NCBI RefSeq assembly: GCF_003586285.1
Contig: NZ_QUBR01000001.1
Location: 992,001 to 1,056,000 of the forward strand
Direction of reading: 5' to 3'
Length of the DNA: 64,000 nt
Origin: Aeromicrobium endophyticum
GTDB lineage: Bacteria > Actinomycetota > Actinomycetes > Propionibacteriales > Nocardioidaceae
Positions within the stretch are counted from its first letter, which is position 1. Every line of letters begins with the position of its first letter. The notes below the pieces were generated by a model, which was not told the DNA's origin, did not search any database, and saw nothing but the letters and a program-made list of their open reading frames with translations. Positions 26,365 through 56,522 of the stretch are shown here, one piece after another. A program made the position numbers and the translations under genes.

Positions 26365-27897
26365 TCAGGCCAGGCGTGACGTGGGAGTCGGTTCCGACCG
26401 TCCGCGCAGCACCGGCGACCCATCAGGCGTCCAGTGGCGCCGCTCGCGCTCGTCGGCAGCGGTGACGCTGGCGGTGGCCACCAGCACGCGTCCCTCGACG
26501 TCCTTGGCGAGCTCGGTCAGACGGGCCGCGGCGTTGACCGCGTCGCCGATGACGGTGTACTCGAAGCGCGAGCGGTGCCCGACGTTGCCGGCCACGGCCT
26601 GGCCCGTCGACACGCCGATGCCGGCACCGATCTCGGGCACCTCGTCGGCCAGACGCTCGGCGACGCGCCGTGCCGTCGCCAGCGCTGCACCTGCGTGGTC
26701 GTCGAGGTCGGCGGGTGCGCCGAAGATCGCGAGGACGGCATCGCCCATGAACTTGTTGACGAGACCGCCGTGGTCGTCGACCTCCTCGACGATGACGGCG
26801 AAGAAGCGGTTGAGCATCGCGACGACCTCGGCCGGCGAACGGGTCGCAGCGTACGTCGTCGAGCCGATCAGGTCGATCATCAGCACCGAGACGGTACGGG
26901 TCTCGCCGCCGAGCTCGACGTTGCCGTCGGTCGCCGCCTGGGCCACCGCCCGGCCCACGTGGCGTCCGAACAGGTCGCGGATCTGCTCGCGCTCGCGCAG
27001 CCCCTGCACCATCTCGTTGAAGCCCGACTGCAGCAGCCCCAGCTCGGTGCCGTCGTCGACGCGCACCTCGACGTCGAGATCGCCCTCCTTGACGCGCTCG
27101 AGCGCCTCTTGGACCGCCACGATCGGCGAGACGACCGCCCGGGCGTTGAGCACCGTCACGAGCGCGCCGAACAGCAGCACGACGGCGGCCAGACCCAGTG
27201 CGGTCGACGCCAGCCGGACGATGCTGGTGTCGTCGCGCGAGATCGCCGCGATCGAGGCGACCACCAGGCCGAGCACCGGGGCCGCGGTGCCGAGGCCCCA
27301 GAACAACAGCATGCGGCGCTGCACGCCGGCGCCCATCTCGTCGGCCGACGCCCGACCCTGCAGGGCCCGCGCCGCGATCGGACGCAGCGCGAACTCGGTG
27401 AACAGGTAGGCGATCGCGCACACCACCAGGCCTGCGATGCCGACGGCGAACACCGCACCCAGCACGGCCTCGGGCTGGAAGATGATCGCGAGGATCGTGA
27501 AGGTCGCGACCCCGCCCATCCACAGCCCCAGCTGGATCAGCGTCATGCGCCACGGCAGCCGCAGGGCCGTGCGACGCTCGTCGACCGTGGGCTCCTGGTC
27601 CTCGATCGACCAGCGCAGCGCGTGCAGGGCGCTGACCGTGACGGCCGTCGCGCCGATCAGCACCGCGACGCCCACGTACACCGGCACCGCGATCGCCAGC
27701 GCGGTCAGGTAGCCGGAGTTGGGCCCGCCGCCGGGGGTCACGAGGAAGGTGATGGCCACGACGATGATCGCGCCGATGACGTTGGTGCCGACCAGCAGGA
27801 TCGTGAGCAGCGCCTGGATGCGGACGCGCAGACGTCCGCTCGGCTGGTCGGGCGGACCGAGCAGCCAGTCGCTGCCCGTCCGGTGCGCTGTCGCCAC
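26365..27897 (-). CDS. Membrane-bound class III adenylate cyclase with HAMP domain
   Basis: A 510-residue cyclase similar in layout to mycobacterial Rv1318c/Rv3645-type enzymes: six membrane helices in the first 255 residues, a HAMP linker (about 258-310), then a class III cyclase domain (about 330-490). Catalytic features: metal-binding aspartates in VLMIDLIGST and KFMGDAVLAIFG, the base-contacting lysine in NKFMGD, and the transition-state Asn/Arg in IGDAVNAAARL. It should convert ATP to cAMP as a membrane dimer. GTG start with GGGGA upstream. The divergent neighbour encodes a cyclic-nucleotide-binding protein. Confidence 0.9.
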   Translation of the reverse strand: MATAHRTGSDWLLGPPDQPSGRLRVRIQALLTILLVGTNVIGAIIVVAITFLVTPGGGPNSGYLTALAIAVPVYVGVAVLIGATAVTVSALHALRWSIEDQEPTVDERRTALRLPWRMTLIQLGLWMGGVATFTILAIIFQPEAVLGAVFAVGIAGLVVCAIAYLFTEFALRPIAARALQGRASADEMGAGVQRRMLLFWGLGTAAPVLGLVVASIAAISRDDTSIVRLASTALGLAAVVLLFGALVTVLNARAVVSPIVAVQEALERVKEGDLDVEVRVDDGTELGLLQSGFNEMVQGLREREQIRDLFGRHVGRAVAQAATDGNVELGGETRTVSVLMIDLIGSTTYAATRSPAEVVAMLNRFFAVIVEEVDDHGGLVNKFMGDAVLAIFGAPADLDDHAGAALATARRVAERLADEVPEIGAGIGVSTGQAVAGNVGHRSRFEYTVIGDAVNAAARLTELAKDVEGRVLVATASVTAADERERRHWTPDGSPVLRGRSEPTPTSRLA

Positions 27898-28069: not shown

Positions 28070-28480
28070 ATGGCACCCAAGCAGAAGGCCGACCCGGACG
28101 TCGTGAAGACGCTGAGCGAGCACACCTCGTTCGACAAGTCGCTGGTCAAGCGCCTCGCCACGGTCGGCAACGCCGTCAACATCCCGCAGGGCTGGTCGGT
28201 CATCATGGAGACCACACCGGCCGACTCGGCCTACATCGTGCTCGACGGCACGGTCGAGATCCGCAAGGGTGGCCAGACCATCGCCGAGCTCGGCCCCGGC
28301 GACGTCTTCGGCGAGATCGCGCTGGTCAACCACAGCCTGCGCAACGCCTCGGCGGTCGCGGCGTCCCAGATCCGCGTGCTGCGTCTCGGCGAGGACGCCA
28401 TCGCGTCGTTGCTCGAGCACGACACGGCCTTCGCCGACACCCTGCGCTCCAACGCCGAGAGCCGCATCCAGACCAGCTGA
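28070..28480 (+). CDS. Stand-alone cyclic-nucleotide-binding domain protein
   Basis: A 136-residue protein consisting of a single cNMP-binding beta-roll. The phosphate-binding cassette is recognisable as GDVFGEIALVNHSLRNASAVA, in which FGEIAL and the arginine in the LRNAS turn contact the cyclic nucleotide. There is no helix-turn-helix, so it is not a Crp regulator; it may be an effector module binding another protein. Divergent location next to an adenylate cyclase suggests cAMP as ligand. It is followed by a terminator hairpin. Confidence 0.85.
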   Translation: MAPKQKADPDVVKTLSEHTSFDKSLVKRLATVGNAVNIPQGWSVIMETTPADSAYIVLDGTVEIRKGGQTIAELGPGDVFGEIALVNHSLRNASAVAASQIRVLRLGEDAIASLLEHDTAFADTLRSNAESRIQTS

Positions 28481-28620: not shown

Positions 28621-30456
28621 ATGGCAGACGTTGAGGCAGCACTGGATCAGGCCGGACTCACCAACCCCCACGTGCGCGAGTACGTGCGCTACTGGGCAGA
28701 CCTGACGGGCGCCGAGCGGGTCGAGGTCGTCAGCGCGTCCGACGACGCCCGGCTGGCCGAGGAAGCACTGGCGGCCGGCGAGCTCCAGCCCGCCGGCGAG
28801 GGGCTCTACTACTCGCGCAGCTACCACAAGGACACCGCCCGCTCCGAGGAGCGGACGATCGTCGCGACGAGCAACCCGAGCGATGCGGGCGTCTACAACA
28901 ACTGGCGTCCGTCGTCGGAGATGAAGCCGCTGCTCGAGGGCAAGATGCGCGGCGCCTCGGCCGGCAAGACGATGTACGTCGTCCCGTACCTGATGGCACC
29001 TCCCGGCTCCCCGCTCGAGGCGTACGCGGCCGGCGTCGAGCTGACCGACTCGCGCACCGTGGTCATGCACATGATCCGCATGGCCCGCGTCGGCATCGAC
29101 TACATCAACGAGCTCGCCGACCCCGACAGCTTTGTGCGCGCCGTCCACGTGACCGGCGACCTCGAGAACCTCGGCCACGGCACCGACGACGACGCGCGCT
29201 ACTTCGTGACGGTCGCCGACGAGCGCACGATCCTGCACTTCGGCTCGTCGTACGGCGGCAACGCGCTGCTCGGCAAGATCGCGCACGGCCTGCGCCAGGC
29301 GGCGTACGACGGCTGGGCGTCCGGCAAGTTCCTGTCGGAGCAGTTCATGCTGCTCGGCATCACCGACAAGGAGACCGGCAAGAAGTACCACATCTGCGGC
29401 GGCTTCCCGAGTGCGTCGGGCAAGACCAACCTGGCCATGACGCTGGCTCCCGACGCCCTGGGCGACCGCTACTACGTCGACTTCTACGGCGACGACATCG
29501 CGTGGCTCTGGGTCGACGAGAACGACGGCAAGCTCTACGGCATGAACCCCGAGTTCGGCGTGTTCGGCGTCGCCAAGGACACCAACGAGGCCACCAACCC
29601 GGGCGCGCTGCACTCGGTCGACGCGGGCACCGGCGCGATCTTCACCAACATCGCCTACAACCCCGACACCCAAGAGGTCTGGTGGGAGGGCAAGACGCCC
29701 AACCCGCCCGAGGACGTCACGGGCTGGGAGGACTGGAAGGGCGAGAAGATCTCCGAGCGTGCCGAGGGCGACGACGCACCGTGGGCGCACCCCAACAGCC
29801 GCTTCACCACGACGCTGTCGAACGTCCCCAACGTCGCTCCCGACTTCAACAGCCCCCAGGGCGTGCCGATCGACGCGATCATCTTCGGTGGACGCACCCG
29901 CGACCGCGAGCCGCTGATCCGCGCGATCACCGACCTCGCCGAGGGCGTCTACGACGGCCTGACGCTGGGCGCCGAGGCCACGTTCGCCGCCGAGGGCGTC
30001 GACGGCCAGCTGCGCTACGACCCGATGTCGATGCGTCCGTTCATGTCGTACCCCGAGGGCGCCTACGCGGCCCAGTGGCTCAAGATCATCGGCGATGCCA
30101 AGGAGGCGCCGCTGTTCGCGCACGTCAACTGGTTCCAGCGCGGCGACGACGGTCGCTTCCTGTGGCCCGGCTACCGCGACAACCTGCGTCCGCTGCTGTG
30201 GCTCATGCAGCTCAAGGCCGGTGAGGTCTCCGGACGCTCGACGCCGGTCGGCATCATCCCGACGCGCGAGGAGCTCAACCTCGAGGGACTCGAGATCGAC
30301 TCGGACGACCTCGACACGATCCTGACGATCGACAACGCGCGCTGGCAGCAGGAGATCGCCAACCGCGAGGTGCACCTGACGGCGTTCCACGACCTGCCCG
30401 AGGAGATCTGGGAGGCGCACCGCCGCGTCAAGGCCGACCTCGAGGCCGACGCCTGA
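28621..30456 (+). CDS. Divergent GTP-type phosphoenolpyruvate carboxykinase paralogue
   Basis: A 611-residue protein homologous along its whole length to GTP-type PEP carboxykinase (oxaloacetate + GTP to PEP + CO2 + GDP). Shared landmarks: [51 protein letters not shown] and HVNWFQRGDDGRFLWPGYRDN. By eye alignment to the canonical paralogue at 47566, key residues differ: the hyper-reactive P-loop cysteine is Ser266 (FPSASGKT), the metal-ligand lysine position after GK is Ile220, and the metal-ligand histidine position reads Gln241 (SEQF versus AEHM). The P-loop lysine and the aspartates remain. The family is clear; activity, nucleotide and direction are uncertain. It stands alone with its own leader. 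Confidence 0.85.
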   Translation: MADVEAALDQAGLTNPHVREYVRYWADLTGAERVEVVSASDDARLAEEALAAGELQPAGEGLYYSRSYHKDTARSEERTIVATSNPSDAGVYNNWRPSSEMKPLLEGKMRGASAGKTMYVVPYLMAPPGSPLEAYAAGVELTDSRTVVMHMIRMARVGIDYINELADPDSFVRAVHVTGDLENLGHGTDDDARYFVTVADERTILHFGSSYGGNALLGKIAHGLRQAAYDGWASGKFLSEQFMLLGITDKETGKKYHICGGFPSASGKTNLAMTLAPDALGDRYYVDFYGDDIAWLWVDENDGKLYGMNPEFGVFGVAKDTNEATNPGALHSVDAGTGAIFTNIAYNPDTQEVWWEGKTPNPPEDVTGWEDWKGEKISERAEGDDAPWAHPNSRFTTTLSNVPNVAPDFNSPQGVPIDAIIFGGRTRDREPLIRAITDLAEGVYDGLTLGAEATFAAEGVDGQLRYDPMSMRPFMSYPEGAYAAQWLKIIGDAKEAPLFAHVNWFQRGDDGRFLWPGYRDNLRPLLWLMQLKAGEVSGRSTPVGIIPTREELNLEGLEIDSDDLDTILTIDNARWQQEIANREVHLTAFHDLPEEIWEAHRRVKADLEADA

Positions 30457-41941: not shown

Positions 41942-44900
41942 TCACGTCGCCGGCGGGGCCTCCAGGGCTGCCAGCCCGGCAGCCACCCGCGACCGGTAGT
42001 CGACGACGCTCGTGAGCTTGACGTGCTCGTAGCCGCGCACCATGTCGGGCAGCGCAGCGATCTCGACCGCGGCTGCGTGCGTCGAGTCGTCGAGCACCTC
42101 GAGCAGACGTGCGACGGTCGCCTCGTACTCGGTCACGAGGTCGCGCTCGACACGGCGGACGTGCGCGTACCCGAACGGGTCGAGCACGGTGCCCCGCAGA
42201 CGCCGCAGGCGGTAGAGCCCCGCGAACACCACGCCGAACCACGGTCCCAGCGCGATCTTGCGCCTCATGCCGAGCGCACGGAGCACCGGTGGGTGCAGGC
42301 GCCACTGCACGCGGGCATCGGCACCCGCCTCCTGCGCGACCCGCTCGCGCTCGTGCGGGTCGAGCGCCAGCCGGGCCACCTCGTACTCGTCCTTGTAGGC
42401 CAGCAGCTTGAAGTAGTGACGGGCCACCGCCTCGCTGAGGGACCCGTCGACGCGTCCGAGGGCCTCTTCGGCCGACCGCACGCGCTCGACGAGCCGCTCG
42501 TAGCGCCGGGCGTACGCCTCGTCCTGGTAGGCCACGAGCTCGGCCCCGCGCAGGCGCACGAGCCGTTCGAGCTCCGAGCCGGCGTCCGCCCTGACCTCGA
42601 CCGGGGCGCGGCTCGGCAGCGACGACGCCGCCGGAGCCGCGGTCCGCTGCGCGACGGCAGCATGCAGGCCGTCCGGGTCGGCGACGAGCTGACGCCCGCG
42701 CCGGAACGCCTGGACGTTGGCGTCGACGGCGACGCCGTTGAGCTCGACGGCCCCCTCGATCGCCGACGGCTCGAGCGACAGCGCACCGAGCTGGTAGGCG
42801 ACGCCGACCATGAACAGGTTGGCGAGCTGCTCGGCACCGAACAAGGGCTCCACGATCGCCCGCACGTCCAGCGCGGTGACCTGGCCGCCGTCCAGTCGCG
42901 ACTCGATCCGCCCGACGAGCTCGGTGACGGCAGGGAAGCTCACGGTCCGGTCGCTGACCATCGCGCCGGTCGGCGTCATGGACGTCGACAGCACGACCGT
43001 GGCAGCGGGCGCCAGCACCGCGAGGTTGGCCGGGGCGACCGCCACCAGACCGTCGAGCCCCAGGTAGAGGTCGCACCCCGCCTCGCCGATCCTGCTGGCG
43101 GTGTCGAAGGGCTCGGGCGAGAAGCGGACGTCCGACACGACCGCGCCGCCCTTCTGGGCGACGCCCGTCTGGTCGAGCGACCTGACGTGCCGGCCCGACA
43201 GCAGAGCGGCCGTCGCGAGCACCTGCGTCGTGGTGACGACGCCGGTGCCGCCGATCCCCATCAGCCTCACGGCCTGGTCGCGAGCGGCCGAGACCGCAGG
43301 CCTCGGGAGGGCGTCGGCGTCGAGGGGCTCGAGGTGGGCCGGGCCGGTGCGTCGCGCGCCCGGCGTCACGGTCATGAACGCCGGGCAGTCGCCCGTCAGG
43401 CACGTGAGGTCGGTGTTGCACGACGCCTGGTGGATCGTGGTCTTGCGCCCGTGCTCGGTCTCGACCGGGTGCACCGACAGGCAGTTCGACTTCTCGCCGC
43501 AGTCGCCGCAGCCCTCGCAGATCCGCTCGTTGATCATGATCTTCTCGGTGGGACGTTCGACGAGCCCGCGCTTGCGCTTGCGACGCAGCTCGGTCGCGCA
43601 CTCCTGGTCGTGGATCAGCACCGTGACCCCGGGGGTCGCGGCCAGCTCGGCCTCGGCCTCGCCGATCCTCGTCCGGGGCCACACGGTAACGCCGCGCCCC
43701 GGCTTCTCGCGGCGCGTGCGGCGGACGTCGTCGGTCGTCACGATGATGCGCGCCACGCCCTCCGAGCGCAGGTTGGCCACCATGCGCGCCAGGTCCATCT
43801 GCCCGACGGCGTCCTGGCCGCCGGTCATCGCGACGGTCGAGTTGTAGAGGATGCGGTACGTCAGGTTGCGACGCGAGGCGACGGCCGCGCGGATCGCGAG
43901 GCTGCCGGAGTGGTGGAACGTGCCGTCCCCGAGGTTCTGCACGAAGTGCGGCGCCTCGACGAACGGGGCCATGCCGAGCCACTGCGTGCCCTCGCCGCCC
44001 ATCTGCGTCAGGCCCACGACGTCGCCGACCTGCTTGGGGTCCATCAGCAGCACCATCGCGTGGCAGCCGATGCCGCCGCCGACCGGGGAGTCCGTCTGCG
44101 GCTTGGTCGAGGTGTTGTGCGGGCAGCCGGAGCAGAAATAGGGCGTGCGCTGCAGGATCGGCAGCTGCAGCCGCTCGCGCGCAAAGGCGTCGCGTCGTGC
44201 CGCGAGCCAGGCGTCGACGGGCTCGGCGCCCGGACGACCCGCGAGCCGCTTGGCGAGCCCGAGGGCCACCGAGTCGGCGTCGAGCTCGCCGTACGACGCG
44301 AACAGCTCACTGCCGTCGACGTCGGTCTTGCCCGTCACCACGGGAGCGCCCGGCAGGCCGTAGAGGACGTCCTTGGCGGCCGTCTCGAGGAACGACCGCT
44401 TCTCCTCCACGACCACGATCTCGTCGAGACCGTCGGCGAGCTCGCGGACGGCGTCGGCCGCGAGCGGCCACACGACATCGACCTTGAGGATGCGGATGCC
44501 CGCACGCTCGAGACCCGCGTCGTCGAGCCCGATCGTGGTCAAGGCCTCGCGGACGTCCAGGTACGTCTTGCCGGACGTGAGGATGCCGACCCGGTCGTCG
44601 GCGTGCCGCACCACGACGCGGTTGAGGCCGTTGAGCCGCACGTAGTCGTCGACGATGCGCAGGCGGGTCGTGGCGAAGTCGCGCTCGAGCGGGCCGAGCA
44701 CCGGTGCGAGCAGCTTGGCGGTCGGCTCGTGGGCGTGCGAGCCGACCGGGACGACGACCGGCGCGGGATCGTCGAGCAGGTCGACGGAGGCCGACCCGTC
44801 GGCGACGGCCGTGACGATCTTCATCGCGGTCCAGAGCCCGCTGGCCCGCGAGAGGGCGATGGCGTGACGGCCCAGCTCGAGGACCTCCGCCGCGTCGGCG

Positions 44901-45427
44901 GGGTAGAACGTCGGGATCGTCAGGTCGGCGAGGGCCCGCTCGGACGCGCACGGCACGCTCGACGACTTGGCGGCAGGATCGTCGCCGACGAGCGCCACGA
45001 CGCCGCCGGTGGGGGCTGTGCCCATCAGGTTGGCGTGGCGGATCGCGTCGGTCGCCCGGTCGAGGCCCGGCGCCTTGCCGTACCAGAACCCCACGACGCC
45101 CTCGACGGTCGCCGGGAGCTCGCCGAGGAGCTGGCTGCCCTGGACCGCCATCGCGGCGGCCTCCTCGTTCAGCCCCTGCTCGAAGACGATGTCGTGCTCG
45201 TCGAGCAGGTCGCGCTGCGAGATGAGCTCGAGGTCGTAGCCTGCCAGCGGCGACCCCTCGTACCCGCTGACGTAGGTGCCGATGCGGCGGCCGGTCAGGC
45301 GGTCGCGGCGAGCCTGGTCGATCGGCAGGCGCGCCAGCGCCTGGATGCCGGTCAGGTGCACCCGTCCCACCCGTCGCTCGTAGCGGTCGGCCAGGGTCAC
45401 GTCGTCGGCGACGTCGACGACGCTCAC
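41942..45427 (-). CDS. Indolepyruvate ferredoxin oxidoreductase, fused alpha/beta-gamma form
   Basis: An 1161-residue TPP- and iron-sulfur-dependent 2-oxoacid:ferredoxin oxidoreductase. It decarboxylates aryl or branched-chain 2-oxo acids to acyl-CoA and reduces ferredoxin. Order: pyrimidine-type domain (GTYVSGYEGSPLAGYD and FEQGLNEEAAAMA), TPP-binding domain (CSGCPHNTST, GGGIGCHAMVL, MGGEGTQWLGMAPF), ferredoxin-like cysteines (ICEGCGDCGEKSNCL, QASCNTDLTCLTGDCPA), and gamma domain (GIGGTGVVTTTQVLATAA, DQTGVAQKGGAVVSDV). GTG start at 45427 overlaps the stop of the dehydrogenase gene (GTGA). It acts directly after the upstream deaminating dehydrogenase. Confidence 0.92.
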   Translation of the reverse strand: MSVVDVADDVTLADRYERRVGRVHLTGIQALARLPIDQARRDRLTGRRIGTYVSGYEGSPLAGYDLELISQRDLLDEHDIVFEQGLNEEAAAMAVQGSQLLGELPATVEGVVGFWYGKAPGLDRATDAIRHANLMGTAPTGGVVALVGDDPAAKSSSVPCASERALADLTIPTFYPADAAEVLELGRHAIALSRASGLWTAMKIVTAVADGSASVDLLDDPAPVVVPVGSHAHEPTAKLLAPVLGPLERDFATTRLRIVDDYVRLNGLNRVVVRHADDRVGILTSGKTYLDVREALTTIGLDDAGLERAGIRILKVDVVWPLAADAVRELADGLDEIVVVEEKRSFLETAAKDVLYGLPGAPVVTGKTDVDGSELFASYGELDADSVALGLAKRLAGRPGAEPVDAWLAARRDAFARERLQLPILQRTPYFCSGCPHNTSTKPQTDSPVGGGIGCHAMVLLMDPKQVGDVVGLTQMGGEGTQWLGMAPFVEAPHFVQNLGDGTFHHSGSLAIRAAVASRRNLTYRILYNSTVAMTGGQDAVGQMDLARMVANLRSEGVARIIVTTDDVRRTRREKPGRGVTVWPRTRIGEAEAELAATPGVTVLIHDQECATELRRKRKRGLVERPTEKIMINERICEGCGDCGEKSNCLSVHPVETEHGRKTTIHQASCNTDLTCLTGDCPAFMTVTPGARRTGPAHLEPLDADALPRPAVSAARDQAVRLMGIGGTGVVTTTQVLATAALLSGRHVRSLDQTGVAQKGGAVVSDVRFSPEPFDTASRIGEAGCDLYLGLDGLVAVAPANLAVLAPAATVVLSTSMTPTGAMVSDRTVSFPAVTELVGRIESRLDGGQVTALDVRAIVEPLFGAEQLANLFMVGVAYQLGALSLEPSAIEGAVELNGVAVDANVQAFRRGRQLVADPDGLHAAVAQRTAAPAASSLPSRAPVEVRADAGSELERLVRLRGAELVAYQDEAYARRYERLVERVRSAEEALGRVDGSLSEAVARHYFKLLAYKDEYEVARLALDPHERERVAQEAGADARVQWRLHPPVLRALGMRRKIALGPWFGVVFAGLYRLRRLRGTVLDPFGYAHVRRVERDLVTEYEATVARLLEVLDDSTHAAAVEIAALPDMVRGYEHVKLTSVVDYRSRVAAGLAALEAPPAT

Positions 45428-46536
45428 CGGGAACCCCCTCCGGCGCGCGTACGGGCATCGTCGAGACGCGCCTGCGCCACGCGCACCGCGGCCCGACCGG
45501 GCGTCTCGCCGTGCTCGGCGGCGAGGGCGAGGATGCCGTCGACCGTGCCGTGCACCGCCAGCACGCGGCTGCGGACGTCGTCGGCCGTGCTGGCAGTGCG
45601 CTCGCCGGCCACCTGGATCAGCCCGCCGGAGTTGGCCACGAAGTCGGGCACCCACAGGACCCCGCGGGCCGACAGCTCGTCCTCGACCTGCGGTGTCGCG
45701 AGCTGGTTGTTGGCCGCGCCGCACACGATGCGGGCGGTGAGACCGGGCACCGTCGTCGCCGAGACCGTGGCGCCCATGGCGCAGGGGGCGTAGACGTCGA
45801 GCTCGGCGTCGACGACCCGATCGACGATCGTCACCTCCGGCACGTCTCGGCTGACGTCGGCGCAGGCCTGGGGGTCGACGTCGGCGGCGAGCACGCGCGC
45901 TCCGTCCTCGACGAGCAGCGCCACGAGGTGGCGGCCCACCTTGCCGAGCCCCTCGACACCGACGGTCCGCCCGTCGAGCGTCGGGGCGCCCCACGTGCGT
46001 CCGGCCGCGGCTCGCATGGCCTCGAAGACGCCCAAAGCCGTCATCGGGGCGGAGTCGCCCGAGCCGCCGGCCGCAGCGGTGCGCGCCACGACGTGCCGGG
46101 TCGTGCGGCCGATGACGTCCATGTCGTCGGACGTGGTGCCGACGTCGCCGGCGGTGATGTAGGTGCCGCCCAACGACTCGACCAGGCGGCCGTAGGCCTC
46201 CAGCAGCGTGGCCGTCTTGGCGCGGCGGGGGTCGCCGAGGATGACCGCCTTGCCGCCGCCCAGGTCGAGGCCCGAGACGGCCGCCTTGAGCGTCATCCCG
46301 CGCGAGAGGCGCAGGACGTCGGTCAGCGCCGAACCGGCGTCCGGGTACGGGTAGAAGCGGGTGCCGCCGAGAGCGGGCCCGAGCAGCGTGCTGTGGATCG
46401 CGATGATCGCGCGCAGCCCGCTGCGCTCGTCGTGTGCGTGGACGATGCGCTCGTGGGTGCCGAGATCGTCCTCGGCGAACGGCGTCTCGTCGGCGGTCGT
46501 CACGCGCGTGGCGGTGGGCTGCAGCAGCTCGGTCAT
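45424..46536 (-). CDS. Valine/leucine-type amino-acid dehydrogenase
   Basis: A 370-residue Glu/Leu/Phe/Val dehydrogenase. The catalytic lysine segment is LSRGMTLKAAVSGLDLGGGKAVI (two lysines, Lys84 and Lys96 region), the NAD domain has VGVEGLGKVGRHLVALL, and ANNQLA and VPDFVANSGGLIQV are family motifs. It oxidatively deaminates branched-chain (or aromatic) amino acids to 2-oxo acids. RBS AGGAGA precedes the ATG. Coupled to the oxidoreductase gene and divergent from an Lrp regulator: a compact amino-acid catabolic unit. Confidence 0.9.
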   Translation of the reverse strand: MTELLQPTATRVTTADETPFAEDDLGTHERIVHAHDERSGLRAIIAIHSTLLGPALGGTRFYPYPDAGSALTDVLRLSRGMTLKAAVSGLDLGGGKAVILGDPRRAKTATLLEAYGRLVESLGGTYITAGDVGTTSDDMDVIGRTTRHVVARTAAAGGSGDSAPMTALGVFEAMRAAAGRTWGAPTLDGRTVGVEGLGKVGRHLVALLVEDGARVLAADVDPQACADVSRDVPEVTIVDRVVDAELDVYAPCAMGATVSATTVPGLTARIVCGAANNQLATPQVEDELSARGVLWVPDFVANSGGLIQVAGERTASTADDVRSRVLAVHGTVDGILALAAEHGETPGRAAVRVAQARLDDARTRAGGGSR

Positions 46537-46662
46537 GCGTCTCCTGAGAAGGCGAGATGGTCAACCGATCGTGCAAGAGCCACGCATCAGGGTCAACGAC
46601 TCGGCTGACAACTGACCCGATCGGTGCGTACAGTGACCCCGGACACATCGGAGGTGACCACG
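46537..46662. promoter_or_regulatory. Divergent promoter region with dyads, probable Lrp site
   Basis: Between the dehydrogenase and Lrp genes there are inverted words: GGGTCA (about 46590) with TGACCC (about 46613), and CCGATCG (about 46564) with CGATCGG (about 46619). Lrp/AsnC regulators bind extended, weakly conserved dyads, so this is a plausible operator region. Confidence 0.4.
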
Positions 46663-47169
46663 ATGCTCAGGATCGACCGCCTGGACGCCGAGCTCATCGG
46701 CGCACTCACCCGCGACGCCCGCACGGGTGTCGTCGAGCTCGCCGGCCTGCTGGGGGTGGCCCGCAACACGGTGCAGGCCCGCCTCAGACGGCTGCACGAC
46801 GAGGGCCTGACGTCGGGCTTCATGCCGCGCCTCGACCTCGCGGCCGTCGGCATCTCGGTGCAGGCCTTCGCGGCACTCGCCCTCGAGCAGGGACGGCTCG
46901 ACGACATCGTGGCTCAGCTGACCGCCATGCCTCACGTGCTCGAGGTGCACGCCACGACGGGCCGCGAGGACCTGCTCGTCCGCCTCGGCACCACCAGCCA
47001 CGCCGAGCTGCAAGAGCTGATCCAGCGGATCGTCGGCCTGCCGGGCGTCTCGCACTCCGACACCAAGCTGGCCCTCACGACGCCGCTGCCCTACCGGGTG
47101 CAGCCGCTGCTGACGCACCTGACGCGGGCGGCGGGCTTCGGACGCTCGACCCCGCCCGTCCGCCCCTGA
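46663..47169 (+). CDS. Lrp/AsnC-family transcriptional regulator
   Basis: A 168-residue Lrp/AsnC regulator. Helix-turn-helix at about residues 4-50 (RIDRLDAELIGALTRDARTG, LAGLLGVARNTVQARLRRL), followed by the RAM ligand-binding domain (about 65-145). The ATG at 46663 is 5 bases after GGAGGTGA; an upstream GTG is possible. It is divergent from valine dehydrogenase and presumably senses branched-chain or aromatic amino acids to control that operon. Confidence 0.9.
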   Translation: MLRIDRLDAELIGALTRDARTGVVELAGLLGVARNTVQARLRRLHDEGLTSGFMPRLDLAAVGISVQAFAALALEQGRLDDIVAQLTAMPHVLEVHATTGREDLLVRLGTTSHAELQELIQRIVGLPGVSHSDTKLALTTPLPYRVQPLLTHLTRAAGFGRSTPPVRP

Positions 47170-47565: not shown

Positions 47566-49389
47566 ATGTCTGCAGACACCGCCGTCCAGTCCACCTACCA
47601 GTCGTCCTACGCCAAGCTCCAGAGCTGGGTCGACGAGGTCGCCGCCCTCACCCAGCCAGACGAGATCTACTGGTGCGAGGGAACCCCGGAAGAGTGGGTC
47701 CGCATCACCGACCGCCTCGTCGAGGCCGGCACCTTCATCCGTCTCAACGACGAGAAGAAGCCCAACTCCTTCTACTGCGCCTCCGACCCCAACGACGTCG
47801 CCCGCGTCGAGGACCGCACCTACATCTGCTCGGTCGACGAGAAGGACGCCGGTCCCACCAACAACTGGATGGCCCCCGACGACATGAAGCAGGTCATGCG
47901 TGGGCTGTACGACGGCTGCATGCGCGGACGCACCATGTACGTCATCCCGTTCGTGATGGGTCACCTCGAGTCCGACCACCCGATGTTCGGCGTCGAGATC
48001 ACCGACTCGGCCTACGTCGTCGCATCGATGACCGTCATGGCGCGCATCGGCCGCGACGTCCTCGACAAGATCGAGCAGACCGAGGCCGACTACGTGCCGG
48101 CGCTGCACTCGTTCGGCGCACCGCTCGTCGACGGCGCCACCGACGTCGCGTGGCCGTGCAACGACACCAAGTACATCGTCCAGTTCCCCGAGGAGCGGAC
48201 GATCTGGTCGTACGGCTCGAGCTACGGCGGCAACGCCCTGCTGGGCAAGAAGTGCTACGCGCTGCGCATCGCCTCGGTGATGGGCCGCGACGAGGGCTGG
48301 ATGGCCGAGCACATGCTGATCCTCAAGCTCACCAACCCCGAGGGCGTGGTCAAGTACATCGCCGCGGGCTTCCCGAGCGCGTGTGGCAAGACCAACCTCG
48401 CGATGGTCGAGCCGACGATCCCGGGCTGGACGGTCGAGACGATCGGCGACGACATCGCCTGGATCCGCGTCGGCGCCGACGGACGTCTGTACGCCGTCAA
48501 CCCCGAGTTCGGCCTGTTCGGCGTCGCGCCAGGCACCGGCTGGGACACCAACGCCAATGCGATGCGCACGATCGAGCAGGGCAACTCGGTGTTCACCAAC
48601 GTCGCCCTGACCGATGACGGCGACGTCTGGTGGGAGGGCATGACCGACGAGCCGCCGGCCCACCTCACCGACTGGAAGGGCAACGACTGGACCCCCGACA
48701 GCGACCAGCTGTCGAGCCACGCCAACAGCCGCTTCTGCACCCCGATCAAGCAGTGCCCGACGCTCGCCGACGAGTACGACGACCCCAACGGCGTCCCGCT
48801 CGACGCGATCCTGTTCGGCGGCCGTCGCAAGACGACGATCCCGCTGGTGACCGAGGCGCGCGACTGGACGCACGGCACGTTCATGGGCGCCACGCTGTCG
48901 TCCGAGACGACCGCTGCCGCCACCGGCGCGGTCGGTGTCGTGCGCCGTGACCCCATGGCGATGCTGCCGTTCATCGGCTACGACGCGGGCGACTACTTCG
49001 GTCACTGGATCACCATGGCCAAGAACAACGACGAGTCGAAGTTCCCGAAGATCTTCTACGTCAACTGGTTCCGTCGCGACGACGACGGCGGCTTCCTGTG
49101 GCCGGGCTTCGGCGAGAACAGCCGCATCCTGAAGTACGTCATCGACCGCGTCGAGGGCAAGGTCGAGGCGCACGAGACGCCGATCGGCCTCGTGCCGCCG
49201 ACGTCGTCGATCGACACCGACGGTCTCGACGTCACCGAGGAGCAGCTCGCCAAGGCGCTCGCGGTCGACACCGACGAGTGGGCCGCCGAGCTGCCGCAGA
49301 TCAACGAGTGGTTCGAGAAGTTCGGCGACACCCTGCCGGCCGTCCTCTGGACCGAGCTCGACGGCCTCAAGGCCCGCCTCGGCCTGTAG
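47566..49389 (+). CDS. pckG: Phosphoenolpyruvate carboxykinase (GTP)
   Basis: A 607-residue canonical GTP-type PEPCK, catalysing oxaloacetate + GTP to PEP + CO2 + GDP at the entry to gluconeogenesis. All hallmarks are intact: [11 protein letters not shown], metal-ligand Lys229 in [13 protein letters not shown], metal-ligand His249 in WMAEHMLI, P-loop FPSACGKTN with Cys273, [17 protein letters not shown], and [21 protein letters not shown]. It resembles Streptomyces enzymes over its full length. The ATG at 47566 follows AAGGAAAAG. The 268-base leader region between tRNA-Arg and this gene is AT-richer and holds its promoter; no riboswitch is recognised there. Confidence 0.96.
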
Positions 49390-53708: not shown

Positions 53709-56522
53709 CTATCCGGTGTTGCGCAGACCCGCCGAGATGCCGTTGATCGTGAGCAGCAGGGCACGCTGCAGGTCCTCGTCGGGCTCGTCCGCCGCCCGCG
53801 AGGCGCGCAGCAGGGACACCTGCAGCGCGTGCAGCGGGGCGAGGTAGAAGTCGCGCAGCTCGAGCGTGCGGCGCAGGACCGGCGCGGACTGCAGCAGCGT
53901 CTCGTCTCCCGTGACCCGCAGCACCTGCTCGACCGTGAGCTCGTGCTCGCGCCGGATGACGTCGAACAGCCCCTGCGACTGCTCGGGCACCAGCGCCTGC
54001 ACGTACTGGGCGGCGATGTCGAGATCGGTCTTGGTCAGCGTCATCTGCACGTTCGAGACGAAGGTGCGGAAGAACGCCCACGAGCCGTACATCTGCTGCA
54101 GGGTCTCGCCGCGACCGTCGTCGAAGGCGGCCTTGAGGCCCGAGCCGACGCCGAACCAGCCGGGCAGGATGATGCGCGACTGCGTCCACCCGAACACCCA
54201 CGGGATGGCGCGCAGGTCTTCGAGACCGCCGAGCCCGCCCGGACGCTTGGCGGGGCGAGAGCCGATGTTCATCTTGCCGAGCTCGTCGACCGGGGTGGCC
54301 GAGACGAAGAACGGGACGAGCGCCTCGTCGCCGACCAGCGAGCGGTAGACCTGCTTGCCCTGCTCGGCGACGAGGTCCATCGTCGCGTTCCAGCCGTCGA
54401 GCACGTTGGCCGGCAGCAGCGAGGTGCGGTGCAGCACGGACGCCTCGAGCACCGCGGCGAGGGCGCCCTCGAGGTTCTGGCGGCCGAGACCCGGCAGGGC
54501 GTACTTGTCGGAGATGACCTCGCCCTGCTCGGTGATCTTGATCGGGCCGTCGAGGCTGCCGTAGGGCTGCGACATGATCGCCTCGGCGGTGGGTCCGCCG
54601 CCGCGTCCGGTCGACCCGCCGCGACCGTGGAACAGGCGCAGCACGACCCCGTGCTTGCGGGCGACGTCGCGCAGGGCGCGCTGTGCGCGGTGCACCTGCC
54701 ACTGCGAGGCGGCGATGCCGGCGTCCTTGGACGAGTCGGAGTAGCCGAGCATGATCTCCTGCACGTCGCCCCGCGCCGTGACCACGCGACGATAGGTCGG
54801 ATCACCCAGCAGCGCCTCGAGCAGCGGGCCGGCGTTCTCGAGCTCGGCGACGGTCTCGAACAGCGGGGCGAAGCCGATGCGGGCGACGGCCTCGGGGCCG
54901 GTCAGGTCGACCAGGCCCACCTCGCGCGCCAGCACGACCACGGCGAACAGGTCGTCGACGTCGTGGGTCATCGAGACGATGTAGGTCTCGACGACCTCGG
55001 GTCCGTAGGTGTCGAGCGCCTCGCGGATGACGCCGAGCAGGTCGAGCGAGGCCGTCGCCGCCTCGCCCAGGCCACCGGCGCCGACGCCGGTGAGCGGGCG
55101 GCTGGACGCCATCTCGCGCTTCAGCACCTCGATGCGCCGGGGTCGGTCGAGCGTCGCGTAGGTGTCGTCGCCGAGGCGGGCGTAGAGCTCGGCCAGGGCC
55201 GCGTGGTGCTTCTCGCTGTGCTCGCGGACGTCCATCGTGGCGAGGCCCGCACCGAAGGTGACGGCCGTGCGGACGAGGCGCAGGATCGCACCGTCGCCGG
55301 TGAGCCGGTCTCCCGCGGCCAGCATCGAGTCACGCACCAGCAGCAGGTCGGCGATGAGCTCGTCGGCCGACAGGTAGTCGCGACCGTCCTCGTGCGGGGT
55401 GTCGTCGACCAGTCGGTCGCGGGTGCGCATCAGGCGGACGCGGACGAAGCTGAGCTTGAGCCGGTAGGGCTCGTCGGCGTTGAGGCGGCGGATCGTCTCC
55501 CACGTGATGGGCAGCGCGGCCGCGTCGGCCTCGAGGCTCTGGCGCAGCTCGTCGGTGGCCTCGACGATGCGGGTCGAGGCGGTCATCTCGGTCAGCACCT
55601 CGTCGACGAGCGCGATGAGCTCGGAGAGTCCGGCCAGGTGCTGCAGGTGCAGGATCTCGAGGGTCACGGCAGGCGTGACGTTGGGGTTGCCGTCGCGGTC
55701 GCCGCCGGCCCAGGTGCCGAAGCGCAACGGACGAGCGGTCGCGGGCAGCGTCACGTCGACCCGGGCGAGCTGCCGGTCGAGCTCTTCGAGCAGGTCGGGC
55801 ACGACCTCGGCGGCGATCGAGCGCAGGTAGTAGACAGCCGTGCGGGCCTCGTCGGACGGCTCGGGGCGCACGACCCGCAGCTCGTCGGTCTGCCACACGA
55901 GGTCGACGAGCTCGGCGAGGCGACGCTCGTCGGCGCGCTGCTGGGCCGCGGGACGGCGGGGGTCCTCCATCGCGCGGACGGTCTCGGCGACCTTGCGGAG
56001 CAGCCGCAGCACGCTGCGACGGCTCGCCTCGGTGGGGTGCGCCGTGAAGACGGGGCGGTACTCGAGCCGCTCGAGCACCTCGCCCAGCAGCTCGTGCGTC
56101 AGGCTGCCGTCGGCGAGCGCGTCGGCGATGCGCCCCACGGTGGTCGCGAGCGGGCCCTGCTCGTCGGCGGCAATCTCCTGCCAGCGGTGCAGCTGCTCGG
56201 TGGTGTTGACGAGCTGGAAGTACGCCGTGAAGGCGCGCGCCAGCACCACGGCGGTGCGGGGCTCGATCGCGTCGAGCGTCTGCTTCAGCTCGGCGTCCTC
56301 GGGCTGGCGGGCGAGGCGGCGCACCGTCTCGACGAGGTCGAGCAGCTCGGCACCCTCGTGCCGGGTGAGCGCCTCGCCCAGCAGCGTCGTGAGCTGCCGG
56401 ACGGACGCCCGCAGCGCGGCGTGCTCGGCATCGGACGACAGCCCGCCACCGAACGAGGCGGCATCGGGCTGACGCCGGTCGGAGGCGAGGATCTGCTCGG
56501 TCGTGCGGCTCTGAGAGGTCAC
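53709..56522 (-). CDS. ppc: Phosphoenolpyruvate carboxylase
   Basis: A 937-residue PEP carboxylase, making oxaloacetate from PEP and bicarbonate. Catalytic and binding motifs are complete: VFTAHPTEASRRSV (catalytic histidine), GGDRDGNPNVT, GYSDSSKDAG, the FHGRGGSTGRGGGPT glycine loop, and the invariant C-terminal NTG. Start is the GTG at 56520-56522. With two PEPCK-type genes in the same window it completes the PEP/oxaloacetate node. Four GGTGGA-N3-TCCACC palindromes sit directly upstream (56579-56691), in the likely promoter zone. Confidence 0.97.
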   Translation of the reverse strand: MTSQSRTTEQILASDRRQPDAASFGGGLSSDAEHAALRASVRQLTTLLGEALTRHEGAELLDLVETVRRLARQPEDAELKQTLDAIEPRTAVVLARAFTAYFQLVNTTEQLHRWQEIAADEQGPLATTVGRIADALADGSLTHELLGEVLERLEYRPVFTAHPTEASRRSVLRLLRKVAETVRAMEDPRRPAAQQRADERRLAELVDLVWQTDELRVVRPEPSDEARTAVYYLRSIAAEVVPDLLEELDRQLARVDVTLPATARPLRFGTWAGGDRDGNPNVTPAVTLEILHLQHLAGLSELIALVDEVLTEMTASTRIVEATDELRQSLEADAAALPITWETIRRLNADEPYRLKLSFVRVRLMRTRDRLVDDTPHEDGRDYLSADELIADLLLVRDSMLAAGDRLTGDGAILRLVRTAVTFGAGLATMDVREHSEKHHAALAELYARLGDDTYATLDRPRRIEVLKREMASSRPLTGVGAGGLGEAATASLDLLGVIREALDTYGPEVVETYIVSMTHDVDDLFAVVVLAREVGLVDLTGPEAVARIGFAPLFETVAELENAGPLLEALLGDPTYRRVVTARGDVQEIMLGYSDSSKDAGIAASQWQVHRAQRALRDVARKHGVVLRLFHGRGGSTGRGGGPTAEAIMSQPYGSLDGPIKITEQGEVISDKYALPGLGRQNLEGALAAVLEASVLHRTSLLPANVLDGWNATMDLVAEQGKQVYRSLVGDEALVPFFVSATPVDELGKMNIGSRPAKRPGGLGGLEDLRAIPWVFGWTQSRIILPGWFGVGSGLKAAFDDGRGETLQQMYGSWAFFRTFVSNVQMTLTKTDLDIAAQYVQALVPEQSQGLFDVIRREHELTVEQVLRVTGDETLLQSAPVLRRTLELRDFYLAPLHALQVSLLRASRAADEPDEDLQRALLLTINGISAGLRNTG

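Follow-up and report, generated by a model that had tools for sequence, protein, structure and literature searches.

A distinct actinobacterial subfamily of GTP-PEPCK homologues with an altered set of metal ligands

Known carboxykinases and the variant locus

In canonical PEPCKs, the M1 manganese is bound by Lys244, His264 and Asp311 (rat numbering) and contacts oxaloacetate. The protein described here is best compared with the canonical GTP-PEPCK (PckG/PCK1; PF17297 and PF00821, NF003253; Rv0211 in M. tuberculosis), with which it shares the fold, length, P-loop, R-loop and lid, as well as the substrate residues, Asp310/Asp311 and the guanine pocket. It differs from this enzyme in overall sequence (38–43% identity), in the replacement of Lys244 by Ile, His264 by Gln and Cys288 by Ser, in two new histidines (His206 and His222), and in lacking Cys245 and the equivalents of M. 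tuberculosis C391/C397. The GTP-PEPCK of Thermoplasma (SASGKTN) has the same natural P-loop Cys-to-Ser change but, unlike the variant, keeps both lysines of the KK pair, the M1 lysine among them (PMC2684135). The PCK of Aeropyrum pernix (YYGE-LKM) resembles the variant in lacking the second, metal-binding lysine; however, it has an ATP-type P-loop (SGTGKTT) and no detectable GTP-type similarity (PMC2684135), and is not a close relative. PPi-dependent PEPCK (EC 4.1.1.38) acts at the same reaction node and is evolutionarily unrelated (PMC8100219). No prior description of the variant subfamily was found in the open-access literature searched, a search outside which most subscription journals fall.

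The window analyzed is a stretch of 64,000 nucleotides from Aeromicrobium endophyticum (contig NZ_QUBR01000001.1). The variant gene occupies 28621..30456 on the + strand, with an ATG start at 28621, a stop ending at 30456 and an uninterrupted frame of 611 amino acids, exactly where the first-pass annotation had placed a second full-length PEPCK homologue. The ordinary GTP-PEPCK that it had also recognized was confirmed by its Pfam and NF003253 matches 17 kb downstream (47566..49389, + strand, 607 amino acids, 38–41% identity to the variant). The variant matches the Pfam profiles PEPCK_N (196 bits) and PEPCK_GTP (405 bits) over its full length, compared with 326 and 567 bits for the canonical copy, and the Pfam search returned GTP-type profiles only, with no match to PEPCK_ATP (PF01293). 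With NCBIfam NF003253 it scores 631 bits, above the equivalog cut-off of 504, where the canonical paralogue reaches 978. The variant is thus a member of the GTP-PEPCK homologous family in the sense of sequence and fold. Its AF2 model has a mean pLDDT of 85 and a pTM of 0.89, with low confidence at the P-loop and near residues 454–461. The solved structures closest to the model are PEPCKs, among them M. tuberculosis PEPCK 4wou (Z 42.7, 2.2 Å, 572 residues), and M. tuberculosis PEPCK is also the top solved relative by sequence.

The gene is under purifying selection similar to that of the canonical one (dN/dS 0.14): dN/dS was about 0.15 against close relatives and 0.15–0.31 across the relatives compared. 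This value, together with conservation over 113 sequences, rules out a pseudogene or sequencing error and bears out the earlier view that the gene is not decayed.

Replaced and retained active-site residues

We aligned the variant to M. tuberculosis PEPCK, rat PCK1 and other canonical enzymes; the key residues of the rat PCK1 sequence fell at their published numbers. The alignment agreed with the residue numbers first read by eye. Ile220 (29278..29280, + strand, as are all codons given here) replaces the M1 ligand Lys244, Gln241 (29341..29343) replaces the M1 ligand His264, and Ser266 (29416..29418) replaces the P-loop Cys288. All three are invariant among relatives, in 110 of 110 and then in 113 of 113 sequences, so that the reactive P-loop cysteine of canonical GTP-PEPCK is absent from all of them. 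By contrast, every one of the 64 canonical sequences has Lys244 and His264, as do 8/8 PEPCKs of greater distance, and the proteobacterial and clostridial PEPCKs from plasmid records also have both. The M1 set Lys244/His264/Asp311 is therefore incomplete in the variant, with Asp292 of the pair Asp291-Asp292 (29491..29496; rat Asp310-Asp311) as its sole retained member.

A counter-explanation raised at the outset, that the ligands are shifted but present, was not seen in the alignment, yet two invariant histidines are candidate relocated ligands. His206 (29236..29238; rat Ser230) is new to the subfamily, being His in 113/113 variants and Ser in 64/64 canonical sequences, and His222 (29284..29286; rat Phe246) is likewise subfamily-invariant; both are candidate replacements for the lost metal ligands. 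Further residues fixed in the subfamily are Gln226 (Ile250), Phe237 (Trp260), Glu441 (His452), Arg472 and Gln506.

The remainder of the active site is preserved. The P-loop GKTN (29419..29430) is kept, including Lys268 and Thr269 (rat Lys290 and Thr291), the nucleotide and second-metal ligands. The oxaloacetate/PEP contacts R87, Y235, K243 (Lys219, codon 29275..29277), N403 and R405 are all kept across the subfamily, as is Arg436. The guanine pocket is retained at W516, F517, F525 and N533, with Tyr at F530, a residue found there in 4/64 canonical sequences too. The first-pass annotation had suggested a different nucleotide or phosphate donor. Because the guanine pocket is kept, GTP is favored; the P-loop Lys and Thr are kept as well, PPi-PEPCK is unrelated (PMC8100219), and nothing in the nucleotide site supports ATP or PPi, so that a donor other than GTP is unlikely. 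Other actinobacterial families contain a third PEPCK group, remote at about 30% identity (L161–L167), which has Tyr, Tyr and Lys at W516, F525 and N533.

The variant also differs from the canonical enzyme in its cysteines, with a mean of 1.2 per protein versus 8.6. All cysteines conserved in canonical sequences are lost, including Cys245 beside the metal-binding lysine and the counterparts of M. tuberculosis C391/C397, whose disulfide affects the activity of that enzyme (PMC5279734). The Cys-to-Ser change in the P-loop had been taken as a mark of altered chemistry, but it is not diagnostic, since it is natural in Thermoplasma (PMC2684135) and the corresponding C273 is non-essential in M. tuberculosis PEPCK (PMC5279734). 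One canonical actinobacterial sequence has Ser at this position as well, and of the three substitutions Cys-to-Ser carries the least information. Cysteine depletion was rejected as a stand-alone signal, as the variant ranks 8th among 37 window proteins, which is ordinary for the genome; the enzyme rich in cysteine is the canonical one.

Distribution of the variant and co-occurrence with canonical PEPCK

Phylogenetic analysis united the variants in a single clade (SH-aLRT 100), whose stem measures 2.19 changes per site, and placed the canonical sequences in a separate group (support 94); the tree comes from a quick search and has long branches, and its exact branching order is unsure. Together with the fixation of all three replacements, this clade upholds the proposal that these residues define a distinct subfamily. 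Carriers include many soil actinobacteria and belong to Nocardioidaceae, Geodermatophilaceae, Intrasporangiaceae and other actinomycetes. Relatives at least 71% identical occur in Aeromicrobium, Nocardioides, Mumia, Blastococcus, Modestobacter, Trujillonella, Phycicoccus and metagenome-assembled actinomycetes of several further families, the closest named loci being 91–95% identical to the variant of the window. Order- and phylum-level searches yielded no intermediates between variant and canonical forms at about 44–71% identity among the matches listed. Plasmid-borne spread was ruled out, with no plasmid record reaching 60% identity. A record labelled 'UNVERIFIED_ORG: Bacillus sp. AZ43' has a variant of 77% identity, as in Geodermatophilaceae, and is probably mislabelled. 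Two genomes have two variant copies: that of Aeromicrobium terrae, which is without a canonical PEPCK, and G302.

Among 269 Nocardioidaceae genomes at least 95% complete, with rows counted by hand, 100 had the variant only, 115 had the variant and another match (as a rule the canonical gene, now and then a further variant copy), 52 had the canonical gene only and 2 had neither, against about 20 expected with neither under independence (Fisher p 1.7e-10, with species rather than independent events as the unit). The pattern was repeated in Geodermatophilaceae, where 10 genomes had the variant only, 15 the variant and another match, 67 the canonical gene only and 1 neither (p 3.7e-6, same unit). 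Canonical PEPCK is missing from about 47% of variant carriers versus 4% of non-carriers in the first family, and from 40% versus 1.5% in the second. Statistically, carriers of the variant can dispense with canonical PEPCK, and non-carriers almost never do. Searches with the canonical protein as query confirmed its absence from the sampled variant-only Nocardioidaceae genomes and from 11/22 named variant carriers; those lacking it include A. massiliense, A. phragmitis, A. camelliae, B. aggregatus, B. aurantiacus, M. muralis, P. flavus and N. kribbensis. Where both genes are present they tend to lie close together, at most 30 kb apart in most of the 13 Nocardioidaceae double carriers examined and in tandem in one genome (L181).

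We then considered other routes to PEP. No ATP-PEPCK scored above the cut-off in 49 genomes. The N-terminal domain of PPDK/PEP synthase is absent from 11/11 variant-only Aeromicrobium genomes tested, and because of this absence the variant is, among the GTP-PEPCK, ATP-PEPCK and PPDK/PEP-synthase routes compared, the sole recognizable means by which these near-complete genomes could make PEP from oxaloacetate or pyruvate. Fructose-bisphosphatase GlpX is present in all 11. The glyoxylate shunt was dropped as support for gluconeogenic growth: isocitrate lyase was matched over most of the profile in only 1 of 15 variant-only genomes, so these genomes do not imply growth on acetate. A point against a working PEPCK is that in API 20NE tests the variant-only A. 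massiliense assimilates maltose and gluconate only and ferments glucose (PMC3569385). B. aurantiacus, also variant-only, oxidizes malic and acetic acids in Biolog plates, which records respiration and not growth (PMC9686282). B. aurantiacus DSM 44268 and B. aggregatus are the two Blastococcus reported to be without PEP carboxylase (PMC9686282). Both are variant-only genomes, and a link between these two absences and an anaplerotic role is possible.

The window itself encodes a second enzyme of the PEP-oxaloacetate node, a PEP carboxylase of 937 amino acids (53709..56522, − strand). Directly upstream of the variant lies a gene for a stand-alone 136-amino-acid cyclic-nucleotide-binding protein (28070-28480, + strand), found at the matching place in 4 of the variant loci examined; next to it is a HAMP and adenylate/guanylate cyclase protein (26365-27897, − strand). 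Clustering the neighbors of 80 named loci revealed no conserved operon or pathway partner, the top cluster comprising 11 loci in mixed positions. Nearer the canonical gene, a large protein with a POR domain, DUF6537 and a TPP-binding match (41942-46536, − strand) adjoins a Glu/Leu/Phe/Val dehydrogenase and a divergent AsnC regulator (46633-47169), an arrangement suggestive of a unit for amino-acid catabolism. The canonical PEPCK of Nocardioidaceae, unlike the variant, is followed immediately by a gene of about 330–340 amino acids whose products share similar N-termini (L063, L105, L181 and L182).

Proposed function and the metal center

We propose, with a probability of roughly 0.62, that the variant is a functional alternative PEPCK with a rebuilt or single-metal center. 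It would catalyze oxaloacetate + GTP <-> PEP + GDP + CO2 on the PEPCK scaffold and would do the job of the canonical enzyme in the cell; because some bacteria retain the variant only, it probably still performs this task. Altered metal, nucleotide or phosphoryl chemistry had been predicted from the first reading. The metal part of this prediction is likely to hold because two of the three M1 ligands are replaced, whereas the part on nucleotide and phosphate donor is not sustained by the retained residues. Overall, the first-pass annotation correctly recognized a distinct, undecayed subfamily, was probably correct on the metal and was not correct on the donor. Rat PCK1 acetylated at Lys244 loses the Mn contact and retains about 1% of its activity (PMC7948413); since blocking this residue nearly abolishes the activity of that enzyme, an active variant would need compensation.

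Such compensation could take two forms. In the first, which we advance tentatively, a high-affinity transition-metal site would be reassembled from Asp292, Gln241 and the two novel invariant histidines, His206 and His222, with His206, His222 and/or Gln241 standing in for Lys244 and His264 and Mn-dependent GTP-PEPCK kinetics preserved. Asp292 is retained, both histidines are new and invariant at positions where canonical enzymes have an invariant Ser or an aromatic residue or Leu, and Gln can bind metal via its carbonyl oxygen; however, His222 lies two residues past Ile220 in a predicted helix (217–234) and probably points away from the old site. In the second, which we consider possible but somewhat doubtful, M1 would be given up and the metal bound to the nucleotide at the P-loop Thr269 would suffice, perhaps with a single, weakly bound Mg or Mn that Asp292, the substrate and the gamma-phosphate bridge. 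Many other P-loop kinases run on nucleotide-bound Mg, and the equivalents of Thr291 and Asp311 are retained. The M. tuberculosis PEPCK-GDP-Mn structure has one Mn only, at the Thr276 site, with a binding stoichiometry of 1.14 (PMC4370629), which makes a one-metal enzyme less strange. Such an enzyme would nonetheless have to work without the ion that holds oxaloacetate in the accepted mechanism, and the near-complete loss of rat PCK1 activity when Lys244 is blocked (PMC7948413) weighs against it.

Whichever center the alternative PEPCK has, its possible benefit would be activity independent of Mn supply and of thiol redox state, both of which affect canonical actinobacterial PEPCK. Because conserved cysteines and Mn ligands were dropped together, one may speculate about an advantage under oxidative stress or Mn shortage. 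In its strongest form, which we regard as doubtful, this idea would make the variant a natural Mg-only, redox-insensitive carboxykinase, without M1 site and regulatory cysteines, that replaces the canonical enzyme in many actinobacterial species.

The variant might instead act as a decarboxylating kinase on a different 2-oxo or dicarboxylic acid, with co-occurrence reflecting lifestyle. The very long subfamily stem of 2.19 changes per site, as in neofunctionalization, and the additional changes I250Q, H452E and L483R are consistent with a new substrate. We nevertheless judge this unlikely: the checked oxaloacetate/PEP contacts (Arg87, Tyr235, Lys243, Asn403, Arg405) are unaltered, no conserved neighboring genes point to another pathway, and loss of canonical PEPCK is almost restricted to variant carriers in two families. 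A catalytically dead or regulatory paralogue, as the loss of two metal ligands might suggest, is very improbable, given that P-loop, substrate and guanine residues are kept in more than 110 sequences and that about 100 Nocardioidaceae genomes have no PEPCK homologue besides the variant.

Because NF003253 accepts the variants as ordinary GTP-PEPCK, metabolic models of Aeromicrobium, Nocardioides and Blastococcus rest on a presumptive assignment. A large natural subfamily that is missing two of the three ligands and seemingly replaces the standard enzyme makes the extent to which the chemistry needs the M1 site directly testable, and may also allow the role of the reactive cysteines to be probed.
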